This document shows, in pieces, positions 29,151-48,330 of a stretch of 64,000 nt of DNA. The DNA comes from an uncultured Pelagibacteraceae bacterium. Lineage in GTDB: Bacteria > Pseudomonadota > Alphaproteobacteria > Pelagibacterales > Pelagibacteraceae. Location of the stretch: NCBI GenBank assembly GCA_902624635.1, contig CACNYD010000001.1, positions 364,766 through 428,765 of the forward strand. The letters run 5' to 3'. Each line of letters begins with the position of its first letter. Within the stretch, counting starts at the first letter, position 1. The notes under the pieces are model-generated. The model saw only the letters and a list, made by a program, of their open reading frames with translations. It had not been told where the DNA came from and did not search any database. A program made the translations under genes and the position numbers.

Positions 29151-29612
29151 ATGTTTAATAAACGTCAAACACTTAAACTTCTAGGTACATCTTTTATTTC
29201 ATTACTTCTTTTACCTTATAAATATCTATATTCAGCGGCAAAAAAAATTATTAATCCTGAGCTTACAAATAAGCAGAAGGATATAATGTTCAACGAGGGC
29301 ACTGAAAGACCTTTTACAAGCAAACTTTTAGATGAAAAAAGAGTTGGTTTTTACCATTGTGCTAATTGTGGTGCAAAGTTATTTGCTTCAAATGCAAAAT
29401 TTGATAGCGGCACAGGTTGGCCCTCATTTACTGAGGCATTGCCTGGAGCATTTAAAACAAAGATTGACTATTCTTTTGGTATGAAAAGAATTGAATATCA
29501 TTGCGCAAATTGTGGAGTTCATCATGGACATGTTTTTGATGATGGACCTTCATCCACGGGAAAAAGATTTTGTAATAATGGTTTGTGTCTAATCTTTAGA
29601 CCTGAGAATTAA
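29151..29612 (+). CDS. msrB: peptide-methionine (R)-S-oxide reductase MsrB
   Basis: CANCGAKLF, FDSGTGWPSF, HCANCGVHHGHVFDDGP, KRFCNNG. Confidence 0.95.
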   Translation: MFNKRQTLKLLGTSFISLLLLPYKYLYSAAKKIINPELTNKQKDIMFNEGTERPFTSKLLDEKRVGFYHCANCGAKLFASNAKFDSGTGWPSFTEALPGAFKTKIDYSFGMKRIEYHCANCGVHHGHVFDDGPSSTGKRFCNNGLCLIFRPEN

Positions 29613-30895
29613 TTTGAAAACCCATATTTTCTAAGACGCACGTCTCCTGTTCTAGCATGAGCTTCCATTCCCTCATATCTTGAGATCCGAGCACAAGCTG
29701 CACCAACTGATTTAGTTGATTCCTTTGTCATTCTCTGAAAACTTAGAGTTTTTATGAATTTACCAACGAATAAACCACCTGTATATCTACCCGCACCTTT
29801 GGTTGGCAATATATGATTAGTTCCAGAGCATTTATCACCATAAGCAACAGTTGTTTCCTCACCAATAAATAGCGATCCGTAATTCTTTAATCTTTTGTGA
29901 AACCATTCCAGATTTTGTGTTTGAACCTCTAAGTGTTCAGGTGCATATTCATCACTAATAGTTGCCATTTCTTCATCTGTGTCACATAAAATTACCTCAC
30001 CATAATCTCTCCAAGCAGCTTCTGCACTGTTTCTAGGTATTTCAGGAAGCTCAGCAATTAATTCTGGAACTCTTTTTATAACCTCTTCAGCAACTCTTTT
30101 ACTTGTAGTGTATAACCAGGCAGGTGAATTATAACCATGTTCTGCTTGACCCACTAAGTCTACTGCTACCATCTCAGCATCAGCTTTATCATCTGCAATA
30201 ACTGCAATCTCTGTTGGACCTGCAAATAAATCAATTCCAACTTTTCCAAATAAAATTCTTTTAGCTTCTGCAACAAATTGGTTTCCTGGACCTACTAATA
30301 TATCTGCTGGTGGGTTATTAAATAAACCGTTTGTCATAGCTGCAATTCCTGGAACACCACCTAAATTTAAAATAATATCCGCTCCACATAAATTAGCTGT
30401 GTAAACAATAGCAGGATGTGCTCCTATATTTTTTTTTGGTGGACTGCACGCAATGATATTCTTGACTCCAGCAACCTTAGCAGTTGTAACGCTCATAACT
30501 GCAGATGCAATGTGAGCATATCTACCTCCGGGTATATAACAGCCAGCTGTGTTAACAGGTATTAATTTTTGTCCAGCATATAAGCCAGGTGAAAGTTCAA
30601 CTTCAAAATCTTGACCATAATTTTTTAGTTGTGCTTCAGCAAATTTTTTTACTCTTTCATGTGAAAATTGGATATCATCTTTTGTTTTTTGGTCTAATTC
30701 TTTTGAAATTTTCTCTATTTTCTCTTTAGTAACAATGATTTCACCATCATAATCATCAAACTTTTTAGTAAGATTTATACATGCCTCTTCTTTTGAAACT
30801 TCTATTTCTTTTAATAATTTCTTAACAATTTCTGCTGTTTTTGTGTCATCAGTAGATGGAGTTTTAGGGGATTTTTTTAAATATTTAATAGCCAT
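29609..30895 (-). CDS. histidinol dehydrogenase superfamily, sulfopropanediol dehydrogenase (HpsN)-like
   Basis: CYIPGGRYAHIASAVMSVTTAKVAGV, VGPGNQFVAEAKR, QAEHGYNSPAWL; resembles HpsN more than HisD from remembered sequence. Confidence 0.75.
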   Translation of the reverse strand: MAIKYLKKSPKTPSTDDTKTAEIVKKLLKEIEVSKEEACINLTKKFDDYDGEIIVTKEKIEKISKELDQKTKDDIQFSHERVKKFAEAQLKNYGQDFEVELSPGLYAGQKLIPVNTAGCYIPGGRYAHIASAVMSVTTAKVAGVKNIIACSPPKKNIGAHPAIVYTANLCGADIILNLGGVPGIAAMTNGLFNNPPADILVGPGNQFVAEAKRILFGKVGIDLFAGPTEIAVIADDKADAEMVAVDLVGQAEHGYNSPAWLYTTSKRVAEEVIKRVPELIAELPEIPRNSAEAAWRDYGEVILCDTDEEMATISDEYAPEHLEVQTQNLEWFHKRLKNYGSLFIGEETTVAYGDKCSGTNHILPTKGAGRYTGGLFVGKFIKTLSFQRMTKESTKSVGAACARISRYEGMEAHARTGDVRLRKYGFSN

Positions 30896-30955
30896 AATTT
30901 CAATAATTGTTTCAGGTTTATTTAAAGTAAATTAGATTTTATTGCAATGAAACAT

Positions 30956-31867
30956 TTAATCTAACGCAACAACAGCAGCAGCTATTGAGGCTAGTCTAGC
31001 CGGAGCTTCATCTGAACGACTAGTTATTACCACAGGTACTTTACCTCCTACAACTACACCTGCAGCACATGCACCACTAAAATAAATCAACATCTTTACT
31101 AAAGAATTTCCCGTCTCAACACTAGGCACTAACAAAACATCAGCAATACCTGCAACATCATTTTTTATTCCTTTTATAGCCGCAGATTTTTTTGATATAC
31201 TATTATCAAACGCTAGAGGTCCAAATACATCTGCATTTAAATTTTCTTTCTTAGCAAGATTAGTTATTTCCTCAGCTTCTTTAGAACTAGGGATACTATC
31301 TAAAACTTCTTCTGTAGCAGACAATACTGCAATTTTTGGTCTCTTAATTCCAATTCTATGAGAAAAGTTAATTACATTCTTTAATATATGCATTTTAGTT
31401 TTAATGTTTGGTAAAACATTCAATGCACCATCTGTAATTATAAGAGGTTTATCTTCTTTATGTAATGTCATATGCCATATATGACTTAATCTAGTTTTAC
31501 CTAGTAAGTTATATTCTCTTTTAAGCACTTCTTTCATTAAAACATCTGTATGAATATGACCTTTAACTATAATTTTAATTTTTTTCTCACTAGCTAGTTT
31601 TGCAGCTATTGACGCAGTATCATTTTCAATTTGTTCATGAATTATTTGATATTTAGAGATATCCCATTTTAAATCTTGAGCACATTTAAGAATTTCTTTC
31701 TTATCTCCAATAAAAATTGGCTCTATTAAATTTTCATTTACCGCATCCTGAACAGATTGCATTGGTAAAGGTTTGCCAGCATTAACAATACCCGCTTTAA
31801 CACCTTTATTTTTATGAGCTGCATTTAATAGATTATTTGGAACAATAATTTCTTTATTTGACAGCAT
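30956..31867 (-). CDS. phosphate acetyl/butyryltransferase family
   Basis: LLVPSVETGNSLVKMLIYFSGACAAGVVVGGKVPVVITSRSDEAPARLASIA. Confidence 0.88.
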   Translation of the reverse strand: MLSNKEIIVPNNLLNAAHKNKGVKAGIVNAGKPLPMQSVQDAVNENLIEPIFIGDKKEILKCAQDLKWDISKYQIIHEQIENDTASIAAKLASEKKIKIIVKGHIHTDVLMKEVLKREYNLLGKTRLSHIWHMTLHKEDKPLIITDGALNVLPNIKTKMHILKNVINFSHRIGIKRPKIAVLSATEEVLDSIPSSKEAEEITNLAKKENLNADVFGPLAFDNSISKKSAAIKGIKNDVAGIADVLLVPSVETGNSLVKMLIYFSGACAAGVVVGGKVPVVITSRSDEAPARLASIAAAVVALD

Positions 31868-31969
31868 AACTAATTTTTTATGATCTCATATTCTTTTTAT
31901 ATTCTTTGAAATTTTAATTTTTTTTAGATTCATTTATTATCTTTTATATTCATAATCTTCATTTTCAAC

Positions 31970-33895
31970 TTAACCTTTTCCACGCCATGGTATTGTTTTA
32001 TCAATAATTTTTCTTAGCGTTATATCAAATAATAATCCAAGCATTCCCATAATAAAAATTGTTATCCAAATAACCTCATATTGAAAATATTTCTTAGCCA
32101 CATTTTCAACAAATCCAATACCAGTAGTGCCAGCTAAAAATTCTGCAGCTACCAAGGTTCCCCAACACATACCTACTGCAACTCTAATACCAGTAAGTAT
32201 CTCTGGTAAGGAGTTTGGAAAAATAACATATCTTAATATTTGTCTTTTTGATGCTCCTAATGAGTGAGCAGCATGAATTTTTGATAGTTGAGTTCCAGAT
32301 GCTCCTGCTCGAGCTGAAATTATCATTATCGATAATGAAACCATGAATAATAAAAACACTTTTCCAGTATTATCAATTCCCAAAACAGAGATAATAAGAG
32401 GAGCCCATGCAAGAGGCGGCACAGGTCTATAAAGTTCTATCAAAGGATCAAAAAAACCTTTTGCAAATCTATTTAATCCCATAAATAGACCAAGAGGTAC
32501 ACCAATTAATATTCCAAAAACTAAACCAAGAAAAACTCTTAAAAAAGAGTCCCAAATATGTCCGTAAGGTACGGGCACTTTAAATAAATCAAAATCACCA
32601 GTTACAATTTTTAAAACTCCACCCTTGAAGTTCTGTTTTACTATGCCATCTTTAGTATGAACAGGATATTCACCTGGCAAAATATCTGCAATCCAGTCTG
32701 GCAAAATAAAGCCAATCATTTTGCTAACATCAACCATTTGTATCCATAATAAAGGAATATCTTTATAACCTACGCTAGGTTTTGACATTAATATGAATTT
32801 ATTGAGAGTATCAGATGGTTTAGGTAACCATCTACCCGAACCTTGTTCTGAACAACTCGGACCACTAGCAACGATTGTTCCTGCAGGAAATAAGAAAATA
32901 TCAATTAATCTCAATCCACCTTGTTCTTTTTTTTGAGCATTATCAAATTTAATAATTGCTGATTGCATCTTATCTAGTGCATTAGGAGGGTAGATACTCG
33001 CAAATTCTATTCTTCTAGCAATCTTAAGAATATTTTTTGCATATGTTGAAGCCACTTCCTCACTATCACTTAAATTTTTTCTATAAGATTTAATTTCCTC
33101 TTTTAAATCTCTAATCTTATTTTTAAATTGAGGATTATGATTTCTTAACTTGAAAAATTCATCACTTATTAAATTCAATTCTTGTGCGGCAGCGTGAAAC
33201 TTTAAACCTTTATATGTTGCAGGCACCAAAGGTACCTCCAATGTATTTTCGATAGAACCTGAGCCTGCATCGACTTTAGTTATACCCCAACCACCTTCTT
33301 CCTCTACTGCTTTAAGTCGTTCATTGAGTTCCTGCTCATTTTCAAATGGATAATCAGGTTTTTGGAAATTTTCAGTTAAAAGATTTATTTTTCCCGTAAT
33401 ATCATCTATTTTTTGTTGTGTCTCAATCTCTAATAGGTCTTCATTTGTTAGTAAAGGGATAAGCTGAGCAGTTTTGCTAATATAACTAATTAATATTGTT
33501 TTTTGTTGACTATTTAGTTCTTCAGAATTTTGAATTTCACTTTGAATTAATTTTAAGTTTTTGTTTTCTTTTTTTATTTGTGAAGTACTTTTGAACTCTC
33601 TTTCCTCTATTGGAAATTGATATTTTAATCCAAGTAAAGAGTCATTCACTTTTGCAACTTGACATAGCTCATTGGCAGATTTTGGATAAAATCCTTTAGC
33701 AATATCCCAAGAATAATAAAGCCAAATTAAAAGTAAAAAACTACTTCCAACAATTACCCAGTGAGTACCACCTAATGCCCTTTCAGGATTTCCAAATACT
33801 GCATCTACTTTTTCAGTTCTTATTAATCTTCTTCCATAAAGAATACAGCCGACTACAGCGAAGAATATCAGAAAAGTTAATATTTGAGTTATCAT
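31970..33895 (-). CDS. tauC: taurine/sulfonate-type ABC transporter permease with large N-terminal extension
   Basis: C-terminal BPD-type permease (EAA-like HAAHSLGASKRQILRYVIFPNSLPEILTGIRVAVGMCW); about 400 aa upstream. Confidence 0.85.
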   Translation of the reverse strand: MITQILTFLIFFAVVGCILYGRRLIRTEKVDAVFGNPERALGGTHWVIVGSSFLLLIWLYYSWDIAKGFYPKSANELCQVAKVNDSLLGLKYQFPIEEREFKSTSQIKKENKNLKLIQSEIQNSEELNSQQKTILISYISKTAQLIPLLTNEDLLEIETQQKIDDITGKINLLTENFQKPDYPFENEQELNERLKAVEEEGGWGITKVDAGSGSIENTLEVPLVPATYKGLKFHAAAQELNLISDEFFKLRNHNPQFKNKIRDLKEEIKSYRKNLSDSEEVASTYAKNILKIARRIEFASIYPPNALDKMQSAIIKFDNAQKKEQGGLRLIDIFLFPAGTIVASGPSCSEQGSGRWLPKPSDTLNKFILMSKPSVGYKDIPLLWIQMVDVSKMIGFILPDWIADILPGEYPVHTKDGIVKQNFKGGVLKIVTGDFDLFKVPVPYGHIWDSFLRVFLGLVFGILIGVPLGLFMGLNRFAKGFFDPLIELYRPVPPLAWAPLIISVLGIDNTGKVFLLFMVSLSIMIISARAGASGTQLSKIHAAHSLGASKRQILRYVIFPNSLPEILTGIRVAVGMCWGTLVAAEFLAGTTGIGFVENVAKKYFQYEVIWITIFIMGMLGLLFDITLRKIIDKTIPWRGKG

Positions 33896-34693
33896 TTAAT
33901 TATCTTTTCCCATAATTTCCTCTTCCATGTTCCATATCATTTCAAGGATTTCCTCTCGTTTTTGAGAAAACTCTTTGTTTTTTTTAATCTCTCTTAAATC
34001 TTCTTTTAATCCCATTGAAGCAAATGGTAGATTATATTCTTTATGTATCCTTCCTGGTCTTGGAGCCATCACATATAATCTTTCTCCAAGAAGCAAGGCT
34101 TCTTCAACTGAATGAGTAATCAGAATAATTGTTTTGCCAGTTTCTTTCCAAATTTTTAAAACTAGGGACTGCATTTTTTCTCTAGTTAGAGCATCTAGAG
34201 CTCCTAATGGTTCATCCATTAAAATCAAATCTGGGTTATTGATTAGACATCTTGCAAGAGCAACTCTTTGCTGCATTCCTCCAGATAATTGATAAGTCGG
34301 AGTGTTTCCAAAGCCTTTTAATCCAACAATCTCCAACCATTCATCAACTTTTTTTTGAGTTCTAACTGAATCTTCTTTTTTCATTCTTAATCCAAAGTTG
34401 ACATTTTCAGCAACTGTTAGCCATTCAAATAAAGCACCCTGCTGAAAAACCATTCCCCGTTCAACACCGGGTCCATCTATTTCTTTATTATTAAGGGTAA
34501 TACTTCCTGAAGTTGGTCTAATAAATCCTGCAGCAATATTTAATAACGTAGTCTTTCCACAACCAGATGGTCCAAGAACAGTAAGAAGTTCTCCTTTTTT
34601 AAGAGTGAAATTTAAATCTTTTAACGCATGAATAGTTTCTCCTTTAGGAGTTTTGAAAATCATGTTTAGATTTTGTGAGATTAAATCACTCAT
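33896..34693 (-). CDS. tauB: taurine/sulfonate-type ABC transporter ATPase
   Basis: Walker A GPSGCGKTT, LSGGMQQRVALAR, LMDEPLGALDALTR. Confidence 0.92.
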   Translation of the reverse strand: MSDLISQNLNMIFKTPKGETIHALKDLNFTLKKGELLTVLGPSGCGKTTLLNIAAGFIRPTSGSITLNNKEIDGPGVERGMVFQQGALFEWLTVAENVNFGLRMKKEDSVRTQKKVDEWLEIVGLKGFGNTPTYQLSGGMQQRVALARCLINNPDLILMDEPLGALDALTREKMQSLVLKIWKETGKTIILITHSVEEALLLGERLYVMAPRPGRIHKEYNLPFASMGLKEDLREIKKNKEFSQKREEILEMIWNMEEEIMGKDN

Positions 34694-34726
34694 AAAGAAG
34701 CTTTATATTTGAATTTTTAATAAAAA

Positions 34727-34760
34727 AATAGGCACCAATTTATTACAATTGGCGCCTATT
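34727..34760 (-). terminator. intercistronic terminator/attenuator between tauA and tauB
   Basis: Minus-strand RNA AATAGGCGCCAAT-TGTAATAA-ATTGGTGCCTATT (one G-U) followed by a U run. Confidence 0.85.
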
Positions 34761-34781
34761 AAAATTTAAATTACCCTTAGA

Positions 34782-35756
34782 TTATAAAGGTAAGAAACTA
34801 GTATCTACGTTTCCTCTTGGTGTTCCCATTCCTTTTAAGAATGCATCAAGATTTCCACTTTCCATAGATTGTTTAGTTTCCTCTGGTGTTAGAAATTTAA
34901 AGCCACTTAAAGTTTCTTTCATATCAGCAACTTTCATTTCAGAAGCTTTTGACATTGAGTTCATATCGCTTTTACCAGCTCTATATCTCGCATTAGCTTC
35001 ATGAGTTACTTCAATAAAAGTTCTTAGCATACCTGGATTTTCCTTCATAAACTTAGTAGTCACTGAAGTGATATCAATACCTAAGATACCTGCGTCTCTA
35101 GCTTCTTGAACTGTAAGTAATCTAGATCCGACTGCAGTCGCAGCTTTAATTGAGTTACCACCAAATAAACATGCCATTACAACATCACCACTTACTAAAG
35201 CAGCAGCACCTTCTTCAGGGTCCATTTGTATGATATCCATTTTTTTTCTGTCCGCACCAACAACTTTCATACTTTCGTCAAAAACATATTCAGCCATTGT
35301 ACCTAGTGGAACAGCAACTTTTTTACCCTCAAGTTCTGTAGCGTTAGCTTTTGTTATACCTGACGCATTTGATGTTACACATGTCGTACCACCCATTCCG
35401 TATTCCATTGCTATATCTACAAGTTTGATAGGAGCTTTTGATTTAACAGCATTAATGAATGGAACTAAACCTTGAGAGTAAGAGATATCAATATCTCCTG
35501 CTAACATAGCATCAGTCATTGCACCACCATTAGTAAAGTTAGTCCACTTAACAGGAACCCCAAGAGCTTTTGCGAAGTTTTTCTTCATCATGTCTTCTAA
35601 ATTTGGGCTTGGCCACTCTAAGAAGTATGCAACTCTAACTTCATTAGCTGCTGAATTAGCAACTGAAATTGAAAGATTAAGAGCTACAAAACATCCAAGA
35701 ATAAAACTAATTATTTTTTTCATTTTTCCTCTTCCTTGTTTATTTATATGTTTCAA
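34782..35756 (-). CDS. tauA: taurine-type ABC transporter substrate-binding protein (likely start 35723)
   Basis: MKKIISFILGCFVALNLSISVANSA signal peptide; NMT1/TauA-like; SD GGAAGAGGA upstream of ATG at 35723. Confidence 0.9.
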   Translation of the reverse strand: MKHINKQGRGKMKKIISFILGCFVALNLSISVANSAANEVRVAYFLEWPSPNLEDMMKKNFAKALGVPVKWTNFTNGGAMTDAMLAGDIDISYSQGLVPFINAVKSKAPIKLVDIAMEYGMGGTTCVTSNASGITKANATELEGKKVAVPLGTMAEYVFDESMKVVGADRKKMDIIQMDPEEGAAALVSGDVVMACLFGGNSIKAATAVGSRLLTVQEARDAGILGIDITSVTTKFMKENPGMLRTFIEVTHEANARYRAGKSDMNSMSKASEMKVADMKETLSGFKFLTPEETKQSMESGNLDAFLKGMGTPRGNVDTSFLPL

Positions 35757-35809
35757 TTTTAAGATTAATTTGACCTATATGTAAAACAAAAAAATGCTCA
35801 TTCTAGTTA

Positions 35810-35826
35810 CACAACTTTAAGTTGTG
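35810..35826. promoter_or_regulatory. perfect inverted repeat in tauA/tpa divergent promoter region
   Basis: CACAACTT-T-AAGTTGTG. Confidence 0.6.
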
Positions 35827-35898
35827 ACAATTATTTTGGTGGTTTATTGCACTTAATTAGTCTAAGGATTCATTAATTAACCAATTATAAAATTTAAT

Positions 35899-37245
35899 AT
35901 GAGCTCAGAAAAAAGAACATCTGTACCAAATTCTTTAAATGAACACTGGATGCCATTTACTTCTAATAAAGATTTTAAAGAAAATCCAAAACTTATAGTG
36001 GAAGCAAAAGGTGTATATTTAAAAAATCACCAAGGTAAAACGCAAATTGATGCTAGCTCAGGATTATTCTGCAATCCTTTAGGACACGGCAGAAAAGAAA
36101 TTATTGAAGCAATAACAAATCAATTACAGACTTTAGATTATTGCCAACCCTTCCAACAAGGATTTGGCGGATCTTTTGAATTAGCAACTAGAATTTCAAA
36201 ACACACACCAGGAAACTTAAATAAAATTTTTTACACAATTTGTGGATCTACTGCAGTTGAAACAGCGATTAAAATTAGTATTGCTTATCATAAAGCAAGA
36301 GGTGAAGGACAAAGATTCAGATTTGTTGGAAGAGAACGTGCTTATCATGGGATGAATATTGGAGCAACATCAGTTGGTGGCATGATCAATAATGTCAAAG
36401 CATATGCAAGTGTATTGATGCCAGGTGTTGTTCATATGAGACATACACATTTAGATGAACATAAATTTATATCAGGTCAACCTGAAACAGGTGCAGAAAT
36501 TGCAAATGACCTAGAAAGAATTTGTACTAATTTTGGTTCAGAAAATATTGCAGCATGTATTGTTGAACCAATTGCTGGTTCAACAGGAACTTTAGTTCCA
36601 CCAGTTGGATATTTACAAAGATTGAGAGAACTTTGTGACAAACATAAAATACTTTTAATCTTTGATGAAGTAATTACAGGTTGGGGAAGAACTGGTTCAG
36701 CTTTTGGAGCTCAAGAATTTGGCGTAACACCTGACATAATGACCATGGCTAAAGCAACAACAAATGGAATAGTTCCTTTTGGAGTGGTTGCTTGTAAAGA
36801 GGAAATTTATGATGCAGTCATGGATAATTCTCCAAAAGGTGCAATTGAATTATTTCATGGTTACACTTATTCAGGAATACCAATTTCTGTTGCAGCAGCA
36901 TTAGCAGTCCAAGATATTTTTGAAAAAGAAGATATTTTTAATAGAGCAAAAGAATTAGCTCCTTACTTCCAAGAAGGTTTGTTTTCTCTAAAAGATATTG
37001 ATGTGGTGGATAATATTAGAGGTTATGGAATGATGGGTGGTATAGACATAAAAACTGATGGAAGACCTGGCAAGGCAGGCTTAGCTACTTTTAAACATTG
37101 TTATGATGCTGGAGTAAATTTCAAAGCGACTGGTGACTGTTTAATTATAGCACCAATGTTTATTTGTGAAAAAAAACACATTGATGAAATTATAGAGAAA
37201 CTAAGAACCGGAATAACTAATTACGCAAAGAGTAAAAAGAATTAA
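35899..37245 (+). CDS. tpa: class III aminotransferase, taurine-pyruvate aminotransferase-like
   Basis: LNEHWMPFTSNKDFKENPKLIVEAKGVYL, FDEVITGWGRTGS; divergent from tauABC. Confidence 0.85.
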   Translation: MSSEKRTSVPNSLNEHWMPFTSNKDFKENPKLIVEAKGVYLKNHQGKTQIDASSGLFCNPLGHGRKEIIEAITNQLQTLDYCQPFQQGFGGSFELATRISKHTPGNLNKIFYTICGSTAVETAIKISIAYHKARGEGQRFRFVGRERAYHGMNIGATSVGGMINNVKAYASVLMPGVVHMRHTHLDEHKFISGQPETGAEIANDLERICTNFGSENIAACIVEPIAGSTGTLVPPVGYLQRLRELCDKHKILLIFDEVITGWGRTGSAFGAQEFGVTPDIMTMAKATTNGIVPFGVVACKEEIYDAVMDNSPKGAIELFHGYTYSGIPISVAAALAVQDIFEKEDIFNRAKELAPYFQEGLFSLKDIDVVDNIRGYGMMGGIDIKTDGRPGKAGLATFKHCYDAGVNFKATGDCLIIAPMFICEKKHIDEIIEKLRTGITNYAKSKKN

Positions 37246-37254
37246 ATTTCGTTA

Positions 37255-38373
37255 ATGAGAATTGGCGTACCTAAAGAAATTAAACCTCAGGAAAACAGAA
37301 TAGGCTTAACACCAGATAGTGTAAAAACCCTTGTCTCTGAAGGTCATGAGGTATTAGTCGAAGACAACGGAGGCTTTGAAGCAGGTTTCGATAATGATCA
37401 GTACAAAAATGCTGGTGCTAAAATTATTGAAAAAGCTGCTGATATTTTTAATGACGCTGAAATAATTGTAAAAGTTAAAGAACCTCAAAAAGTTGAGGTT
37501 GAGATGATTAAAGAAAATCAGATCGTATATACTTATTTACATCTAGCTGCTGCAAAAGAACTAACGGAAGGTTTAATTAAATCTAAAAGTATAAATATTG
37601 CTTATGAAACTGTGACTGATGATAATGGCAGACTTCCATTACTTGCACCAATGAGTGCGGTAGCTGGACGAATGTCAGTTCAGGCTGGAGCTCATTGTTT
37701 AGAAAAAAATCAAAAGGGTAGAGGAGTTCTATTAGGAGGAGCGCCAGGAGGTGAACCAGCAAATGTATTGATTCTTGGTGGTGGAGTAGTAGGTGAGAAT
37801 GCTGCAATAATAGCTACTGGTATGAGAGCTAAAGTTCATATTGTAGATAAATCTGAAGAAAGATTAAAACAGTTAGTTGAGATGTTTGGTGATAAAATTA
37901 TTCCACAACAAAGTGACAAAATAGATTTAAATAAATTGGTTGCTGAAGCAGATTTATTAGTGGGTGGAGTATTAATACCTGGTGCAGAAGCACCAAAATT
38001 AGTAACCAAAGATATGTTAAAACTAATGAAAAGAGGATCAGTCATTGTGGATGTTGCAATTGATCAGGGTGGGTGTGTTGAAACAAGTAAACCTACAACA
38101 CACGGAAATCCAACATATATAGTCGATGACGTAGTTCATTATTGTGTAGCAAATATGCCTGGTGGAGTTCCTAGAACTTCTACTTTTGCTTTAAATCAAG
38201 CAACCCTTCCTTTTCTAGTGAAATTAGCAAACAAAGGTTATCAAAAAGCTCTTGGTGAAGATAAAAACTTTTTAGCAGGATTAAATGTTTGTAAAGGCCA
38301 TGTGACTTATAAAGCTGTTGCAGATGTTTTTGGACATGAATATGTTAAACCTGGAGATGCAATCAAAAATTAA
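37255..38373 (+). CDS. ald: alanine dehydrogenase
   Basis: MRIGVPKEIKPQENRIGLTP, GGGVVGENAA, GGVPRTSTFALNQATLPF. Confidence 0.95.
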   Translation: MRIGVPKEIKPQENRIGLTPDSVKTLVSEGHEVLVEDNGGFEAGFDNDQYKNAGAKIIEKAADIFNDAEIIVKVKEPQKVEVEMIKENQIVYTYLHLAAAKELTEGLIKSKSINIAYETVTDDNGRLPLLAPMSAVAGRMSVQAGAHCLEKNQKGRGVLLGGAPGGEPANVLILGGGVVGENAAIIATGMRAKVHIVDKSEERLKQLVEMFGDKIIPQQSDKIDLNKLVAEADLLVGGVLIPGAEAPKLVTKDMLKLMKRGSVIVDVAIDQGGCVETSKPTTHGNPTYIVDDVVHYCVANMPGGVPRTSTFALNQATLPFLVKLANKGYQKALGEDKNFLAGLNVCKGHVTYKAVADVFGHEYVKPGDAIKN

Positions 38374-38377
38374 TTAA

Positions 38378-40822
38378 ATGGAAAAAAAACTTCCAAGTAA
38401 CACTAAAGTTGTTGTTATAGGAGGTGGAGTGGTAGGTTGTTCGGTGGCATACCATTTAGCTAAATTTGGATGGAAAGATACAATTCTTTTAGAAAGAGAT
38501 CAGTTAACATCAGGCACAACTTGGCATGCAGCTGGATTGGTCAGTCAATTAGGTCCATCTGCAGCAATTACTAAAATTAGAAAATATACTTTAGATCTTT
38601 ATAAAGAACTCGAAAAAAAAGTTGATCATTCAGCTGGATTAAGATTGAACGGTGCACTTTCAATTGCTGAGAATAAAGGTAGATGGCAAGAACTTCAAAG
38701 ACAAGCAACAACAGCCCAGCTTTTTGATGTTGATGTAAGAATTTTAGATAAAGATCAAATTAAAAAGGATTATCCAATCATAAATACCAATGAAGTTTTA
38801 GGTGGAATTTTGATGCCTGGTGATGGTGCTGCAGATCCATCAGGAGTAACACATATGTTAGCAAAAGCAGCCAGGATGGAAGGAGCAAAGATTTTTGAAA
38901 AATCTCCTGTCGACGAAATTTTAACTAAGAATGGCAAAATTTCTGGAGTAAAAGTAAATGGTCAAAAAATTGATTGTGAGTATATTGTTTTAGCTTCCGG
39001 AATGTGGTCACGCCAAATTGGAGAAAAAGCTGGAGTAAGTATACCTCTTTATCCAGCAGAACATTTTTATATTATTACACAGCCGATTGAAAATCTTTCA
39101 AAAACTTTACCAGTGATAAGAGATTTTGATAATAGAACTTATATAAAAGAAGATGCTGGAAAAATATTAGTTGGTATATTTGAGTCTCAATCTATTCCAG
39201 CTTGGGATAAAATTAATAAAGTTCCAGAGGATTTTTCATTTGGAGAATTTCAAGAAAATTTTGAGCATTTTGAACCTTATTTAGCCACTGCAATAAAAAG
39301 ATTTCCAGTTCTAGAAAAAGCAGGAATTAGAAAATTTTTTTCAGGTCCAGAGTCATTTACTCCAGATACAAATACATTACTAGGAGAAGTACCTGAAATA
39401 AAAAACTTTTTTGTATGTTGTGGTTTAAATAGTATTGGAATTGGAAGTGGGGGAGGTGTTGGTAAAGTTACCGCCGAATGGTTAATAAATGGACATATTA
39501 ATGAAGATATTTTTTGCTATGACATCAAAAGATTTCAAAAATTTCACTCTGAGCTAGGTTTTATTAAAAAAAGAATTACGGAATCTTTAGGAGATTTATA
39601 TGGAATGCATTGGCCGTTTAAACAACACAAAACATCAAGAAATATAAAAACACTTCCATATCACGATGAGTTAAAAAGTTTTGGTGCTTGTTTTGGTGTT
39701 TCTGGAGGATACGAGAGACCAATGTGGTTTGCATTAGATGGAGAAAAAACGGATTACGAATATAGTTATAATTACCAAAATTGGTACCCTTCAGCAGAGT
39801 ATGAAACAAATAATACTATAAAAAATGTTGGATTATTTGATTTAACTCCTTTTTCTAAATTTGAGATTAAATCCGATAAAGCTCACAAGGAATTGCAGAA
39901 AATTTGCACAGCCAACATTCAGAATGAGGCTGGAAAATGTATTTATACACATATGTTAAACTCTGATGGTGGAATTGAAACAGATTTAACAGTTGTTTGT
40001 ATTGATAAAGATTATTTTAGAATAATTAGTTCGGCTGCAACAAGAGAAAGAGATAAATTTCATATAAAAAAACACCTGGCAAAAGATGTTGAGTTGAAAG
40101 ATGTTACGGATGATTTTTGTGTATTCGGTGTTTTTGGACCAAAGAGCCGAGCTTTAATGAAATCAATTTCAAAAGATAATTTCGAAAATGATAATTTTAG
40201 ATTCGGCACAGCAAAATACATAACAATTGAAGGAACTAAAATTTGGACTCAAAGATTGTCTTATGTCGGGGAATTAGGCTACGAGTTATATGTGAAATCT
40301 AAGGAAGCTAAAAAAATTTATGAATTATTAGTTAATAAAGGAAAAGATTTTAATCTCTCGAATTGTGGTATGCACGCTATGGATATTATGCGAATGGAGA
40401 GTGGATTTTTACATTGGGGACACGATATTTCACCAGAGGAAAATCAATATCAAGCAGGTTTATCTTTCACAATAAGTTCTAAAAAAGAGGACGAATTTAT
40501 TGGTAAAAAAGCTTTAGAGAAGATTAAAAAAGAAAAAATTAAAAGTAGATTTGCAATGTTTACTTTAAAAAATACTAAACCAGGTGAACCATTGTTACTT
40601 CATGATGAGCCTATTTATTTAGAAAATAACATTATTGGTAGATCAACATCTGGGAATTATTCCTTTAATTTTAAGAAAAATTTAGCATTTGGTTATATTA
40701 ATAGCGATATTTCAAATGACGAACTTCACAAAAAAGATTTATTTATTGAAGTTGAGAAAAAAAAATATCCAATTGAAATAATTAACAAACCTTTAAAACA
40801 AACTAATTTTAAAAATAATTAA
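38378..40822 (+). CDS. FAD-dependent dimethylglycine/sarcosine dehydrogenase-like protein with GcvT-like C-terminus
   Basis: VVVIGGGVVGCSVAYHLAKFGW; ALDGEKTDYEYSYNYQNWYPSA; GCVT-type C-terminal domain. Confidence 0.9.
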   Translation: MEKKLPSNTKVVVIGGGVVGCSVAYHLAKFGWKDTILLERDQLTSGTTWHAAGLVSQLGPSAAITKIRKYTLDLYKELEKKVDHSAGLRLNGALSIAENKGRWQELQRQATTAQLFDVDVRILDKDQIKKDYPIINTNEVLGGILMPGDGAADPSGVTHMLAKAARMEGAKIFEKSPVDEILTKNGKISGVKVNGQKIDCEYIVLASGMWSRQIGEKAGVSIPLYPAEHFYIITQPIENLSKTLPVIRDFDNRTYIKEDAGKILVGIFESQSIPAWDKINKVPEDFSFGEFQENFEHFEPYLATAIKRFPVLEKAGIRKFFSGPESFTPDTNTLLGEVPEIKNFFVCCGLNSIGIGSGGGVGKVTAEWLINGHINEDIFCYDIKRFQKFHSELGFIKKRITESLGDLYGMHWPFKQHKTSRNIKTLPYHDELKSFGACFGVSGGYERPMWFALDGEKTDYEYSYNYQNWYPSAEYETNNTIKNVGLFDLTPFSKFEIKSDKAHKELQKICTANIQNEAGKCIYTHMLNSDGGIETDLTVVCIDKDYFRIISSAATRERDKFHIKKHLAKDVELKDVTDDFCVFGVFGPKSRALMKSISKDNFENDNFRFGTAKYITIEGTKIWTQRLSYVGELGYELYVKSKEAKKIYELLVNKGKDFNLSNCGMHAMDIMRMESGFLHWGHDISPEENQYQAGLSFTISSKKEDEFIGKKALEKIKKEKIKSRFAMFTLKNTKPGEPLLLHDEPIYLENNIIGRSTSGNYSFNFKKNLAFGYINSDISNDELHKKDLFIEVEKKKYPIEIINKPLKQTNFKNN

Positions 40823-41670
40823 GTTCTATTTCTTAAGAATAATACAAAAAGAACAGAAGTCATCATCATAATCAAAGCATAAGCTGCTGTTGGAACCATG
40901 TAAGTCATATTTTGCCCAAACAATTGAGTTCCAACAAAAACAGCTAATGTTCCATTTTGTAATCCACACTCAAGAGATATACATCTTTGTTGGGCAACAC
41001 CTGATGCAAAAAATTTAGCAACATAGAATCCTATAATCATCATGGAAATATTTAAGATTAAAGCAATAGTTCCAGCTGTACTGAGGAACATTATAATACT
41101 GTCCCATTCCTGAATATAGATAGCAATAAAAACAATTGAAAATAATCCTATAGATATTCTTTCAATAATTTTCATATTATTTTCTATAAAATCACTAAAA
41201 AATTTTCTAATAATCATTCCAATTATTACAGGTACCGTAACCACAAAAAACATCTTCAATGATATACCAAGCATCGAAACTTCTTTTTCAACATAAGTAA
41301 TATCAAATAAATCAATTGATAAAAAAACTATATAAGGGACCGAGACAATACTTATTAAACTGGTAAAAGCAGTAAGAGATATAGATAGCGCAATATCTCC
41401 ATCTGCAAATTTAGTTAGCACATTTGATGTTACTCCACCAGGTGCGGCTGCAATCAACATTACCCCTAACGCTAGCTCAATTGGAGTTTTTAAAATAATT
41501 ATTAATAAATAACCAATAATTGGAAGAACTATTAATTGACAAATTAAACCGACAAAAAATTCTTTCGGATGCTGAAATACTCTTGTAAAATCTTTTACAG
41601 TTAAAGATGCACCGAGCCCTAACATAATTAATGCTAGCGCAAATGGCGCTATTGTCGTTACTATACCCAT
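40819..41670 (-). CDS. bile acid:sodium symporter (BASS) family transporter
   Basis: LGVMLIAAAPGGVTSNVLTKFADGDIALSISLTA, ECGLQNGTLAVFVG. Confidence 0.9.
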   Translation of the reverse strand: MGIVTTIAPFALALIMLGLGASLTVKDFTRVFQHPKEFFVGLICQLIVLPIIGYLLIIILKTPIELALGVMLIAAAPGGVTSNVLTKFADGDIALSISLTAFTSLISIVSVPYIVFLSIDLFDITYVEKEVSMLGISLKMFFVVTVPVIIGMIIRKFFSDFIENNMKIIERISIGLFSIVFIAIYIQEWDSIIMFLSTAGTIALILNISMMIIGFYVAKFFASGVAQQRCISLECGLQNGTLAVFVGTQLFGQNMTYMVPTAAYALIMMMTSVLFVLFLRNRT

Positions 41671-41714: not shown

Positions 41715-42692
41715 TTACGAAATTACAAGAAGATTCAAAACTTTACGGATAAACTTCGCTTTAAACTTAAACATTTCTGTTTGATAAGGCAAAATTTTTC
41801 TAAAATTTAATTGACTTAATGTGTATTGTTTTTTTTTATTAATCTTAAGTAAATCTTTTTCTAATAAATATTTACATTTTCTAATAATTGTGGCCCTAGG
41901 AATATTAGTCATATCTGAAATTGACATTGCACTTATTCCCGAGTCTGTCCCAACATTATCTAATAAAATACTATTAGAAGTAAAATAATCTAAAGAGGGT
42001 TTATCATCACCAGTATCCAAATGTTTTGAAACGTTTAACACCTGATTCATTGATACTGTACCCCAAATATGAAATGTTGTTAAATCATTCATAAATTTAT
42101 GGTAACCAATAATTAGTGGTATTTGCATTCGATAAAACCAACGCCAACATAATGTGAACCTTTTTTTTATGATGTTTTCAATTGTTTTTTGATCAAGTTT
42201 TTTAGAATAAATTTTATTTTTTTCCAAAGCTTGGTAAACTCGGTATATATATTTCGAAGAATTTTTAATTTGTTGTTCTGGTTTAACAAAAGGAAAAGCT
42301 TTTCTATCAATTAAAATTTTTTTTTTATTACGATTTATTACTCCTTCTGTTTCAAGTTCTAAAACTTTTCTTCTAACAGTTTCTTTTGGTAAATCTAATT
42401 TTTCACAAAGTTCTGTAATACTAAATTTTTCAATTTGTAGGTTTGATTTCGAATAATAATCATCGTAACTATATTGAATATTCATCTGATCATAAAATTG
42501 TAGAGTTTTTTCAATTAATGAAATTATAATTAGGTATTTATAGTGATCTTTAAATGGTCCATAAACATTGTTCATCCACTGCCATTGATGAGAAATCCAA
42601 TCTTTACTTAAATCAGAGTAATTTGTCATAATGGTCTCAAAGACCTGATCGTCTGTTAGGGTTTTTGAAAAATCTATTTCTTGAATGCTCAT
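41715..42692 (-). CDS. transcriptional regulator with two winged-HTH segments
   Basis: FSITELCEKLDLPKETVRRKVLELETEGVINRNKK and ISAMSISDMTNIPRATIIRKCKYLLEKDLLKINKKKQYTLS. Confidence 0.75.
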   Translation of the reverse strand: MSIQEIDFSKTLTDDQVFETIMTNYSDLSKDWISHQWQWMNNVYGPFKDHYKYLIIISLIEKTLQFYDQMNIQYSYDDYYSKSNLQIEKFSITELCEKLDLPKETVRRKVLELETEGVINRNKKKILIDRKAFPFVKPEQQIKNSSKYIYRVYQALEKNKIYSKKLDQKTIENIIKKRFTLCWRWFYRMQIPLIIGYHKFMNDLTTFHIWGTVSMNQVLNVSKHLDTGDDKPSLDYFTSNSILLDNVGTDSGISAMSISDMTNIPRATIIRKCKYLLEKDLLKINKKKQYTLSQLNFRKILPYQTEMFKFKAKFIRKVLNLLVIS

Positions 42693-42714
42693 AAGTTTGA
42701 CATTGTTAGTAGAA

Positions 42715-42759
42715 ACCCAAATTGAACAGTTGTCAATTTAATAGTGACCCAAATTGAAC
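42715..42759. promoter_or_regulatory. 13-bp direct repeats ACCCAAATTGAAC upstream of the wHTH regulator
   Basis: Copies at 42715-42727 and 42747-42759, 32 bp start to start. Confidence 0.6.
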
Positions 42760-42804
42760 TTTCATTAAATTGTTCGTAACATTAAATATGTTTTAATAAT
42801 AAAA

Positions 42805-43035
42805 ATGACTACTAAAGGCTTTACAGATAATACCAATAATATCGAGACCCCAAATGATATTAATGTTTCTGAAAAGCCTTTAAATCAGAAGAAAATTAGT
42901 TCCGGAAGGGTTGACATCAATGTTCTAAAGTCAAAATTGGAAGCTCAACAAGGAAAAGAGTTAAGAAAAAATATTTTTATTTTTTCATTTTGCGTTTTGC
43001 TGTTAGGCTCAATCGGAATATTTCTATCTTTATAA
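42805..43035 (+). CDS. small single-TM protein (76 aa)
   Basis: ATG ORF, C-terminal TM; shares DINVL...RK pattern with next ORF. Confidence 0.55.
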   Translation: MTTKGFTDNTNNIETPNDINVSEKPLNQKKISSGRVDINVLKSKLEAQQGKELRKNIFIFSFCVLLLGSIGIFLSL

Positions 43036-43077
43036 TTTTATTTGCTAATAATTAAAAAGGATGCTTTATTACGCCAC

Positions 43078-43287
43078 ATGAAAAATTTAGCTAACGCTGT
43101 TAAGGAGAAACTTACTGCAAAGTATAAAGTATCTGAAAGTTCACAGTATAATCATAAAAGCACAGATATTAATGTTCTTCTGAATAGAGTAAAATTAGAT
43201 AGAAAACAAGAAGTTAGAAAAAAGTTTTATTTCTCTGCTGCAGCTTCCACAGGCTTGATTTTATTTGGACTGATAGTTTTCAGCTAA
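43078..43287 (+). CDS. small single-TM protein, paralog of preceding ORF (track start TTG 43042; ATG 43078 preferred)
   Basis: TDINVLLNRVKLDRKQEVRKKFYFSAAASTGLILFGLIVFS. Confidence 0.55.
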   Translation: MKNLANAVKEKLTAKYKVSESSQYNHKSTDINVLLNRVKLDRKQEVRKKFYFSAAASTGLILFGLIVFS

Positions 43288-44899: not shown

Positions 44900-45937
44900 T
44901 TGTTTAATACAGTTAATAGAAATATGAAATCAAAAATTTTAATTACTGGTTCTCAAGGATTTATCGGAAAAATATTAGTCAATGAATTCAAAAATATTAA
45001 TAAATTGATATTAATTGATAAAAAAAAAAATTTATCAAAACAAAAAAATTTTTATCAAATAAATTTGCTGAAATTAGATAATCTTGAGAAAATATTCAAA
45101 AAACAAAAAATATCAGCAATTATACATCTTGCATCAGAAATATTTGATGATGATAAAAATGTTTATGATTTTAATGTAACAACATCTAGAAACTTAATTT
45201 TGATGGCCGAAAAATATAAAATCAAGAATTTTATCTTTACATCCACTTTTTCTATTTATGAGAAAAATTATATCAAACCAATATTAGAAAAAGAAAATCC
45301 CAGTGCTAAAAATTTATATGGTAAATCTAAATATCAAGTAGAGACAATTTTGAAAGAATCTAAATTAAAGAATTATACTATTCTTAGAGTTCCCATAGTT
45401 GTTGGAAAATCTAGAAGCCACAGAATGGGAATTCTTTTTGAGATGATTAGAAATAATTTTCCATTATTTTTGATTGGCGATGGGAACAATAAAATACAGT
45501 TTATCCAAGTTGATGATCTATGTTTAATTATAAAAAAATGTTTAGGTCTAAAAAAGACCAATATATTTAATGTTGGTACAAAAAAATCTTTCACATTTAA
45601 AGAAAATTTATCTTACATAATTAAAAAATCTAAATCTAAGTCTAAAATTTTTAATGTAAATTATTATTTTGGAAATTTAGCTTTAAATATATTAATTTTT
45701 TTTAATTTAATCGATTTAAATTATTATCACAAAGTGTTACTTACAAAAAATATAGTTTTAAACACAAAAAAAATTTTTAACATATTAAAATTAGATTTGA
45801 ATAAATCTAGCAGGGATATACTTTTAGAAAATTACGAATATTATGTGAAAAATTTAAAAAATATCAATAAAATAAATTCTGGCTCGGACAAAAAACCTAA
45901 TTTAAAAATTTTCAATTTTTTTAAAATCTTTTCTTAA
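44900..45937 (+). CDS. NAD-dependent epimerase/dehydratase (extended SDR)
   Basis: ILITGSQGFIGKIL, HLASEIFDD, SAKNLYGKSKYQVE; ATG at 44924 also possible. Confidence 0.85.
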   Translation: MFNTVNRNMKSKILITGSQGFIGKILVNEFKNINKLILIDKKKNLSKQKNFYQINLLKLDNLEKIFKKQKISAIIHLASEIFDDDKNVYDFNVTTSRNLILMAEKYKIKNFIFTSTFSIYEKNYIKPILEKENPSAKNLYGKSKYQVETILKESKLKNYTILRVPIVVGKSRSHRMGILFEMIRNNFPLFLIGDGNNKIQFIQVDDLCLIIKKCLGLKKTNIFNVGTKKSFTFKENLSYIIKKSKSKSKIFNVNYYFGNLALNILIFFNLIDLNYYHKVLLTKNIVLNTKKIFNILKLDLNKSSRDILLENYEYYVKNLKNINKINSGSDKKPNLKIFNFFKIFS

Positions 45938-46451
45938 GTTTTTTAAAATCTTTTAGACTTAAGTTATTTTTATCTTTATTTGAAATTATTGGTTTTTTAA
46001 TTGGCCAATTAATTTTAAGGTCCTTGTCATCAAACTTAATACCTATCTCACTTTTTTCATCTCTATATTTTGTACAACTATAAACTACATAATTTTCATT
46101 TGATAATGCACAAAAACCATGGGCAAAGCCAGGTGGTATAAAAATAGATTTCGAATTTTTTTCACTTAATATTGTGGATAAATATTTTCCATAAGTTTTT
46201 GAATTTTTTCTTAAATCAACCACAACATCAAATATTTTGCCTTTTATAACGCTAATAAATTTTCCCTGGGAATTTTTTTTTTGTAAGTGAAGACCTCTAA
46301 TTACATTTTTTTTTGAAAATGACATTACTAGAAATGGAAATCTTTTTTTTAGTTTTTTTTCTCTGAGTAATTCTTTAAAATAACCTCTTTTATCTTTAAA
46401 AGCGGTATTATTTATGATTACAAGATCCTTAAATTTTGATTTTTTAATCAT
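45921..46451 (-). CDS. rfbC: dTDP-4-dehydrorhamnose 3,5-epimerase family
   Basis: RGYFKELLREK, VIRGLHLQKKNSQGKFISVIKGKIFDVVVDLRK, PPGFAHGFCAL. Confidence 0.9.
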   Translation of the reverse strand: MIKKSKFKDLVIINNTAFKDKRGYFKELLREKKLKKRFPFLVMSFSKKNVIRGLHLQKKNSQGKFISVIKGKIFDVVVDLRKNSKTYGKYLSTILSEKNSKSIFIPPGFAHGFCALSNENYVVYSCTKYRDEKSEIGIKFDDKDLKINWPIKKPIISNKDKNNLSLKDFKKLKKRF

Positions 46452-47320
46452 TAGATTAATTTTTTAAGATAGGAAGAGTATTCACAATTTCCATAAAACT
46501 TTATTGCTTTTTTTATATCTTTACTATTAATCCAGTTATTTAATAATGCTATTTCTTCGAGACACGCAATCTTAAAACCTTGCCTATTTTCAACCGCCTG
46601 AACAAAAATTGATGTTTTGTAATAATCACTAATAGAACCTGTGTCTAACCAAGCACCACCTCTTCCAAGAAATTCTGCTGAAAGTTTATTCTTAAGTTTA
46701 TATTTATTAATTAAGTCAATGATTTCAAGTTCACCTCTTTTTGAGGGTTTTAAACTCTTTGCATAATCTACAACATTCTTATCAAAAAAATAAAGACCTG
46801 TGATTGCATAATTCGATATAAATTTTTTTGGTTTCTCTTTAATTTTAAGAATTTTTTTATTTTTAAAATTTATTTTTGCAACACCAAAAGCTTCTGGATT
46901 TTTTACACTATGTAGGACTATTCTCGCTCCACTTTTTAATTTGACACAATTAGCCAGAAGTCCTGATAAATTTTGTCCGTAAAAAAAGTTATCCCCCAAA
47001 ATCATAGCAACTCCTGAATTCTTAATAAAATCTTTTCCAATCAAGAATGCATCTGGCAAACCTCTTGGTTCGCTTTGCTCTTTAAAAGTAATATTTACTC
47101 CAAAATTTTTTTTATTTGGAAACAACTTTTTATACTGGTTTAATTGACCTTTATTTACGATAATCAAAATATCTCTTATTTTTGCTAACATTAGTATTGA
47201 TAAAGGATAATAGATCAGAGGCTTATCATAGATTGGTAATAGTTGTTTATTTACCGCCTTAGTTAGTGGGCTCATTCTAGTGCCCATTCCACCAGCCAAA
47301 ATAATCCCTTTTTTTATCAT
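46451..47320 (-). CDS. rfbA: glucose-1-phosphate thymidylyltransferase
   Basis: GIILAGGMGTRMSPLTKAVNKQLLPIYDKPLIYYPLS. Confidence 0.95.
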   Translation of the reverse strand: MIKKGIILAGGMGTRMSPLTKAVNKQLLPIYDKPLIYYPLSILMLAKIRDILIIVNKGQLNQYKKLFPNKKNFGVNITFKEQSEPRGLPDAFLIGKDFIKNSGVAMILGDNFFYGQNLSGLLANCVKLKSGARIVLHSVKNPEAFGVAKINFKNKKILKIKEKPKKFISNYAITGLYFFDKNVVDYAKSLKPSKRGELEIIDLINKYKLKNKLSAEFLGRGGAWLDTGSISDYYKTSIFVQAVENRQGFKIACLEEIALLNNWINSKDIKKAIKFYGNCEYSSYLKKLI

Positions 47321-48330
47321 TATTTACCTAATCTATTTAAAATATCTCTTTTTGAAAGTGATTTAAAGTATGACTTGTTTTCAAAATACCAATTAAGTGT
47401 TAATCGTATTCCTTGTGAAAAATTTATTTTTGGATACCAATTAAGTTTTTTTTTAATTTTATCACTATTTAGTGCATATCTGATATCATGGCCAGGACGA
47501 TCTTTAACAAAATTAATTTTTACTTTTTTACCCAACTTTATAATTTTTTTTGAATTTTTTAAAATTTCTTTGGTGACTTGTAAATTATTCAAGTTTTTGT
47601 TTGAACCAATATTATAAGATTCTCCGATCTTACCTTTAGAGAAAACTTTAATTAATGCCTCACAGTGATCTTTTACGTATATCCATTCTCTTGAATTTTG
47701 CCCTTTTCCATATATTGGTAAAGCTCTATTATTTATTATATTATAAATAAGTTTGGGAATTAATTTCTCTGGATGTTGTTTAGGGCCATAATTATTTGAA
47801 CAATTTGTAATTATTGCGGGTAACTTATAAGTTTTTATGTATGCGCGAACTAAATGATCAGATGCGGCTTTACTTGCTGCATATGGGGAACTTGGTTGAT
47901 AGGGGTACGTTTCGCTGGTCCTTCCTTTTAGAACATCACCATAAACCTCGTCAGTTGAAATATGAATTAATTTTGACTTATTTTTTTTTGAAAAATCCTT
48001 AAAAGATTCAAGTAAATTATATACACCCACGACATTGCTTTGTATAAAATTTCCAGGATTATCAATTGATCTGTCAACATGTGTTTCAGCAGCTAAATTA
48101 AAAATTCCTGAAGGTTTATACTTCATAAATATTTTTCTTATCTTGTTGTTTGCGATATCAAGTTTTATGAATTTATATTTTTTAGATTTCTTAAAATCTT
48201 TAGTATTGTAAAAATTTGAAGAATAGGTACCTTTGTCTATATTGATGATGTAAAAATTTTTTTTTAACAATAGTTCTATAAGATTACTTCCTATAAATCC
48301 TAATCCTCCAGTAACAATGATTTTTTTCAT
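47320..48330 (-). CDS. rfbB: dTDP-glucose 4,6-dehydratase
   Basis: VTGGLGFIGSNLIELLL, AAETHVDRSID, STDEVYGD, YAASKAASDHLVRAY. Confidence 0.95.
   Translation of the reverse strand: MKKIIVTGGLGFIGSNLIELLLKKNFYIINIDKGTYSSNFYNTKDFKKSKKYKFIKLDIANNKIRKIFMKYKPSGIFNLAAETHVDRSIDNPGNFIQSNVVGVYNLLESFKDFSKKNKSKLIHISTDEVYGDVLKGRTSETYPYQPSSPYAASKAASDHLVRAYIKTYKLPAIITNCSNNYGPKQHPEKLIPKLIYNIINNRALPIYGKGQNSREWIYVKDHCEALIKVFSKGKIGESYNIGSNKNLNNLQVTKEILKNSKKIIKLGKKVKINFVKDRPGHDIRYALNSDKIKKKLNWYPKINFSQGIRLTLNWYFENKSYFKSLSKRDILNRLGK

Follow-up and report, generated by a model that had tools for sequence, protein, structure and literature searches.

Plasmid initiators of the Rep_3 type (RepE/RepA) carry two tandem winged helices, use iterons and repress their own genes. 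In the MarR family, helices flank a winged helix-turn-helix (wHTH) domain; each chain has one such domain, and the homodimer gives one operator two of them. Taurine operons of other alphaproteobacteria are regulated by TauR, a protein of the MocR/GntR type. We analysed a window (the whole stretch of DNA under study, 64 kb) from the SAR11 lineage (Pelagibacteraceae) that contains a regulator gene, here called REG, with a partial likeness to all three systems. As in Rep_3 initiators, a single REG chain has two winged helices, direct-repeat sites and, apparently, autoregulation. However, Rep_3 proteins act on several iterons at a replication origin, whereas REG has exactly two boxes, which are chromosomal and lie between divergent genes and beside transporter genes, and the Rep_3 profile gave no match to REG in Pfam at E ≤ 1. 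REG resembles MarR proteins in the helices that flank its wHTHs, but it fuses two modules in a single chain. The neighbourhood of REG recalls TauR in its taurine-type transporter, aminotransferase and alanine dehydrogenase genes, but REG itself has no aminotransferase-like domain. A last comparison, made by description and with no homology claimed, is Stf76 of Sulfolobus pSSVx, which is reported to be a wHTH protein recognising two sites in its own promoter (PMC4027180); it comes from an archaeal plasmid-virus and, at 76 aa, is only a fraction of the size of REG.

Family searches gave only generic matches. Three Pfam models exceeded their curated cut-offs by narrow margins, HTH_11 (25.8 vs. 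25), HTH_24 (24.4 vs. 21.9) and HTH_DeoR (22.6 vs. 21), and the part of REG that passes them is its first wHTH. REG thus shares an ordinary wHTH topology with these models. They describe a domain only, whereas duplication has given the REG chain a pair of wHTHs, and the DeoR-type sugar-phosphate effector domain is absent from its Pfam matches. The MarR models fell short of their cut-offs (MarR_2, 21.7 vs. 27; MarR, 12.2 vs. 24.6), as did GntR (11.7 vs. 27), for which no effector-domain match was found. NCBIfam returned nothing above its cut-offs, and a sequence search of the PDB nothing below E = 0.7. Fold searches of the PDB and of the viral models in BFVD found no whole-fold relative at E ≤ 0.001; the PDB fold matches do include the MarR members SlyA, OhrR and MexR, but weakly. 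Literature searches on Pelagibacter regulation and transport and on regulator architectures likewise turned up nothing about the family. An initial sequence-only reading had not recognised the suggested autoregulatory architecture from any named family, and the Pfam, NCBIfam, fold and literature searches agree.

The regulator gene and its two modules, each made of helices, a wHTH and a further helix, are as follows.

41715–42692, minus strand: REG, the regulator gene, an ORF of 325 aa
REG residues ~8–160: module 1
REG residues ~161–325: module 2

AlphaFold2 predicted the structure of REG with high confidence (pLDDT 87.3, pTM 0.86) and folded two confident wHTH units, the first as H92–99/H103–115/E119–122/E125–129 and the second as H255–262/H266–278/E282–284/E290–292. 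The two wHTH segments proposed from sequence, at about residues 90–125 and 250–295, are therefore both predicted to fold as HTH (units 92–129 and 255–292), rather than one of them alone. We split a 130-sequence alignment of the REG family in two and compared the N-half and C-half profiles with hhalign, which aligned them across 148 columns at E = 4.7e-14. This profile match indicates that the whole of REG is a tandem duplication of one module, and the two wHTHs are the two ends of that duplication. The Trp/Tyr-rich middle that had been read as a separate domain is actually the end of module 1 together with the helical start of module 2. The recognition helices, PKE[TS]xRRK and IPR[AP]TxxRK, vary little; they are kept in nearly all 23 REG representatives, among members that are about 30% identical overall.

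Upstream of REG lies a pair of identical direct repeats.

42715–42727, minus strand: proximal box, GTTCAATTTGGGT on the gene strand, within the REG promoter spacer; conserved in relatives
42747–42759, minus strand: distal box, likewise GTTCAATTTGGGT when read along the gene, and 32 bp further upstream than the proximal box

Both boxes read ACCCAAATTGAAC, their start-to-start distance is 32 bp and the pair lies 22 bp upstream of the REG ATG, exactly as the sequence-only reading had placed them. A spacing of 32 bp corresponds to three helical turns, so the earlier description of two sites on the same DNA face also stands. The consensus of the 13-bp boxes on the gene strand is GTYCANNNTGGGT. The exact 13-mer occurs in the source genome only in these two copies; relaxing the motif to GTTCANNNTGGGT adds a single unpaired site, which is about the chance expectation. 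We collected 80 relatives by a genome scan, all Pelagibacteraceae/Pelagibacterales. Of the resulting 81 upstream regions (window included), 80 have both boxes with a spacing of exactly 32 bp. The exception, L025, has a spacing of 31 bp and a damaged distal box. Across 39 non-redundant upstream regions, invariance is confined to the two boxes, the −35 element TTGACA and single bases nearby.

We also scanned 247 Pelagibacterales genomes with a pattern that knew the boxes alone and permitted any spacing of 28–36 bp. One pair per genome was found in 100 of them, all with a spacing of 32 bp (a 45-bp match), while the reversed control pattern had no matches in the same genomes. The chance expectation is about 7e-6 pairs per genome. 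A 13-mer present twice in a single AT-rich genome could arise by chance, and the repeats could in principle be functionless, either fortuitous or recently duplicated; the near-complete conservation, the identical spacing of all 100 blind pairs and the low expectation refute this, and we assign it a vanishingly small probability. The repeats might also be read by another regulator, with REG downstream by coincidence. The near absence of other copies in the genome means that there is no regulon by which this could be judged. However, 30 of the 30 fetched blind-scan pairs lie directly upstream of a REG-family gene in the same orientation, although some of these members are only about 30% identical and their neighbourhoods vary, so that a separate reader is very improbable. 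(Small negative box-to-gene distances among the fetched matches reflect upstream in-frame ATGs.)

The genes adjoining REG are also conserved.

40819–41670, minus strand: SBF, a transporter of the sodium/bile-acid symporter family (Pfam SBF, E = 2e-37), 44 bp downstream of REG
42805–43035, plus strand: s1, a small single-TM protein of 76 aa with an RVDIN[VI]L motif ahead of the predicted TM segment
43078–43287, plus strand: s2, a second small single-TM protein of 69 aa, a paralogue of s1

SBF is directly downstream of REG in 80/80 relatives of the window's clade and, on the same strand, is probably co-transcribed with it. The s1 gene is divergent from REG in 78 of 79 testable relatives, and s2 is present in 76/76. 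The small proteins, which stand in tandem (42805–43287) and share a DIN[VI]L motif, have no significant Pfam family. In distant members of the family, REG is mostly accompanied by SBF and a small protein, with changed gene orders.

The boxes lie among predicted elements of two promoters.

42731–42736, minus strand: −35 element of the REG promoter, TTGACA, 100% conserved in the 39 non-redundant upstream regions
42708–42713, minus strand: −10 element of the REG promoter, TCTACT, 17 bp from the −35 element; family consensus TCtaaT
42770–42775, plus strand: −35 element of the divergent small membrane-protein gene, TTGTTC, with conserved CAA at columns −45 to −43
42789–42797, plus strand: extended −10 element of the divergent promoter, TGTTTTAAT, at a distance from the distal box that is kept in both promoter registers

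Over the same 39 regions, the first T of the REG −10 element is conserved at 0.92 and its last T at 1.00, while the spacer of the divergent promoter (columns about −61 to −46) is essentially free. The REG promoter occurs in two registers. In the first, which is that of the window's clade, it has the form TTGACA-N17-TCtaaT, with the proximal box within the 17-bp spacer. In the second, found in distant members, the distal box is overlapped at its end by a TTGACT element placed 11 bp further upstream, and the proximal box contains the presumed −10 element (CATATT-like). The promoter has thus shifted by 11 bp while the box pair has remained 32 bp apart, so the spacing is not a by-product of promoter position. 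It is probably set by the protein, and the simplest means would be contact between the bound molecules. Whichever the register, one of the boxes covers part of the core promoter, a sign of repression of REG; with the proximal box filling the TTGACA promoter spacer of the window's clade, autorepression is implied. The autoregulatory arrangement suggested at the outset is thus borne out as far as position goes, with conserved boxes in REG's own promoter.

The fixed distance between the divergent −10 element and the distal box, kept while the REG promoter slides 11 bp, would also fit a two-way switch, in which REG activates the divergent small-protein gene through the distal box and the proximal box provides negative feedback on REG. 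In the window, the centre of the distal box is about 51 bp upstream of the predicted divergent start. In addition, REG and the small-protein families share a presence pattern in genus g1, where 67 genomes have both and 9 have neither (76/76 concordant; genomes were searched with both profiles and the lists compared by hand, and shared ancestry weakens the statistic). However, the start sites of both REG and the divergent gene are predictions from the DNA, and the fixed distance may stem from common ancestry. We give the two-way switch less than an even chance. It is compatible with repression of REG through a cooperative pair, and both could hold.

How the two boxes are occupied is suggested by their internal structure. 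Each 13-bp box contains two invariant 5-bp blocks, GTYCA and TGGGT, about 8 bp apart. With two recognition helices on every REG chain, the most economical reading is that each box takes up a single chain. The sequence-only reading had instead favoured a single polypeptide placing one HTH on each box. Such bridging would match two wHTHs per chain to two boxes per operator, and the rigid 32-bp spacing would be set inside one molecule. We consider it unlikely: two invariant 5-bp blocks per box are more than one wHTH normally reads, and by a size estimate 32 bp (~106 Å) is too long for a compact chain of 325 residues to span. One polypeptide per box, with neighbours in contact, is therefore the more likely arrangement. 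An internal pseudo-palindrome in the box, RYYCANNNTGRRY, was not significant, as 20% of shuffles were as good, and it does not serve as evidence here.

From these features we infer a mechanism that we regard as reasonably probable as a whole. REG would be a one-component transcription regulator that arose by tandem duplication of a helical and wHTH module, which places two recognition helices on one chain. One chain would bind one 13-bp box, and two chains, lying on one face of the DNA at a distance of three helical turns, would touch and bind cooperatively. The proximal chain would cover the REG promoter and repress the REG-SBF operon. The distal chain would stabilise the proximal one, and would also adjoin the promoter of the divergent small membrane-protein gene. 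A metabolite, probably tied to SBF and to the neighbouring sulfonate and methylamine genes, would be expected to alter binding.

Those neighbouring genes form a sulfonate/taurine-like cluster at 29609–40822 of the window. It includes a TauABC-type transporter, whose permease (641 aa) has a long N-terminal extension, as well as a phosphate acetyl/butyryl-transferase, a HisD-family dehydrogenase, a class-III aminotransferase (omega-aminotransferase), an alanine dehydrogenase and a dimethylglycine-dehydrogenase (DMGDH)-like FAD/GcvT enzyme. Because taurine/sulfonate ABC, aminotransferase, alanine dehydrogenase and DMGDH-like genes adjoin the module, a sulfonate or a methylamine is our guess for the REG ligand. 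In distant members (L145, L147, L151 and L152, stretches of about 3 kb each), REG and the small protein likewise have a TauC-like permease fragment, resembling that of the window, no more than about 1.5 kb away.

We also considered that REG, SBF and the small single-TM protein could be one sensing device, in which the small protein would use its conserved RVDIN motif to tether REG to the membrane or to signal transporter activity to REG. If so, transport flux, not free ligand, would set the occupancy of a rigid two-box operator. This proposal is doubtful, and we mention it as a long shot.

SAR11 bacteria are the most abundant bacteria of the ocean. According to one description, few transcriptional regulators are annotated in their cells (PMC13198564), and testing these is made harder by the absence of a genetic system, which was reported in 2011 (PMC3090418). 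In the present case a regulator family, its operator and the geometry of its promoter emerge from sequence alone. REG with its box pair seems to represent a family of self-regulating switches that has not been described before, associated with a nutrient transporter and a tiny membrane protein. The strict 32-bp spacing, unaltered by a promoter shift of one helical turn, offers a clean natural case of operator geometry that is apparently set by the protein complex.

Within the order, the REG family profile matched 288 of 397 genomes, which represent 7 of 13 genera. Among 385 class-level genomes, no full-length homologue was found outside Pelagibacterales, where matches were of wHTH size only. 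As a component of the joint explanation above, and with the same fair probability, we take REG to be specific to SAR11.

Some members have conserved recognition helices and no box pair upstream (L129–L133, L130 among them, L135, L138, L139 and L140), and genus g158 is also box-free. An operator universal in the family is ruled out by L129–L133, L138 and genus g158; by these upstream regions, the box pair marks part of the REG family, not all of it. In box-free clades these helices are nearly unchanged, so the operator cannot be predicted from helix sequence alone, a point against the mechanism proposed above.

A wider local regulon was also ruled out, as the 822 kb around the 80 relatives contained no extra GTYCANNNTGGGT boxes. 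Five looser matches in that DNA are a single GATCANGGTGGGT site at one conserved position, on the opposite strand about 4.6 kb from REG (L023, L043, L047, L055 and L056); this site is probably coding sequence. Just past the module, the window holds NAD-epimerase and dTDP-sugar (rfbABC-like) genes at 44900–48330, which suggests the edge of a surface-polysaccharide region.
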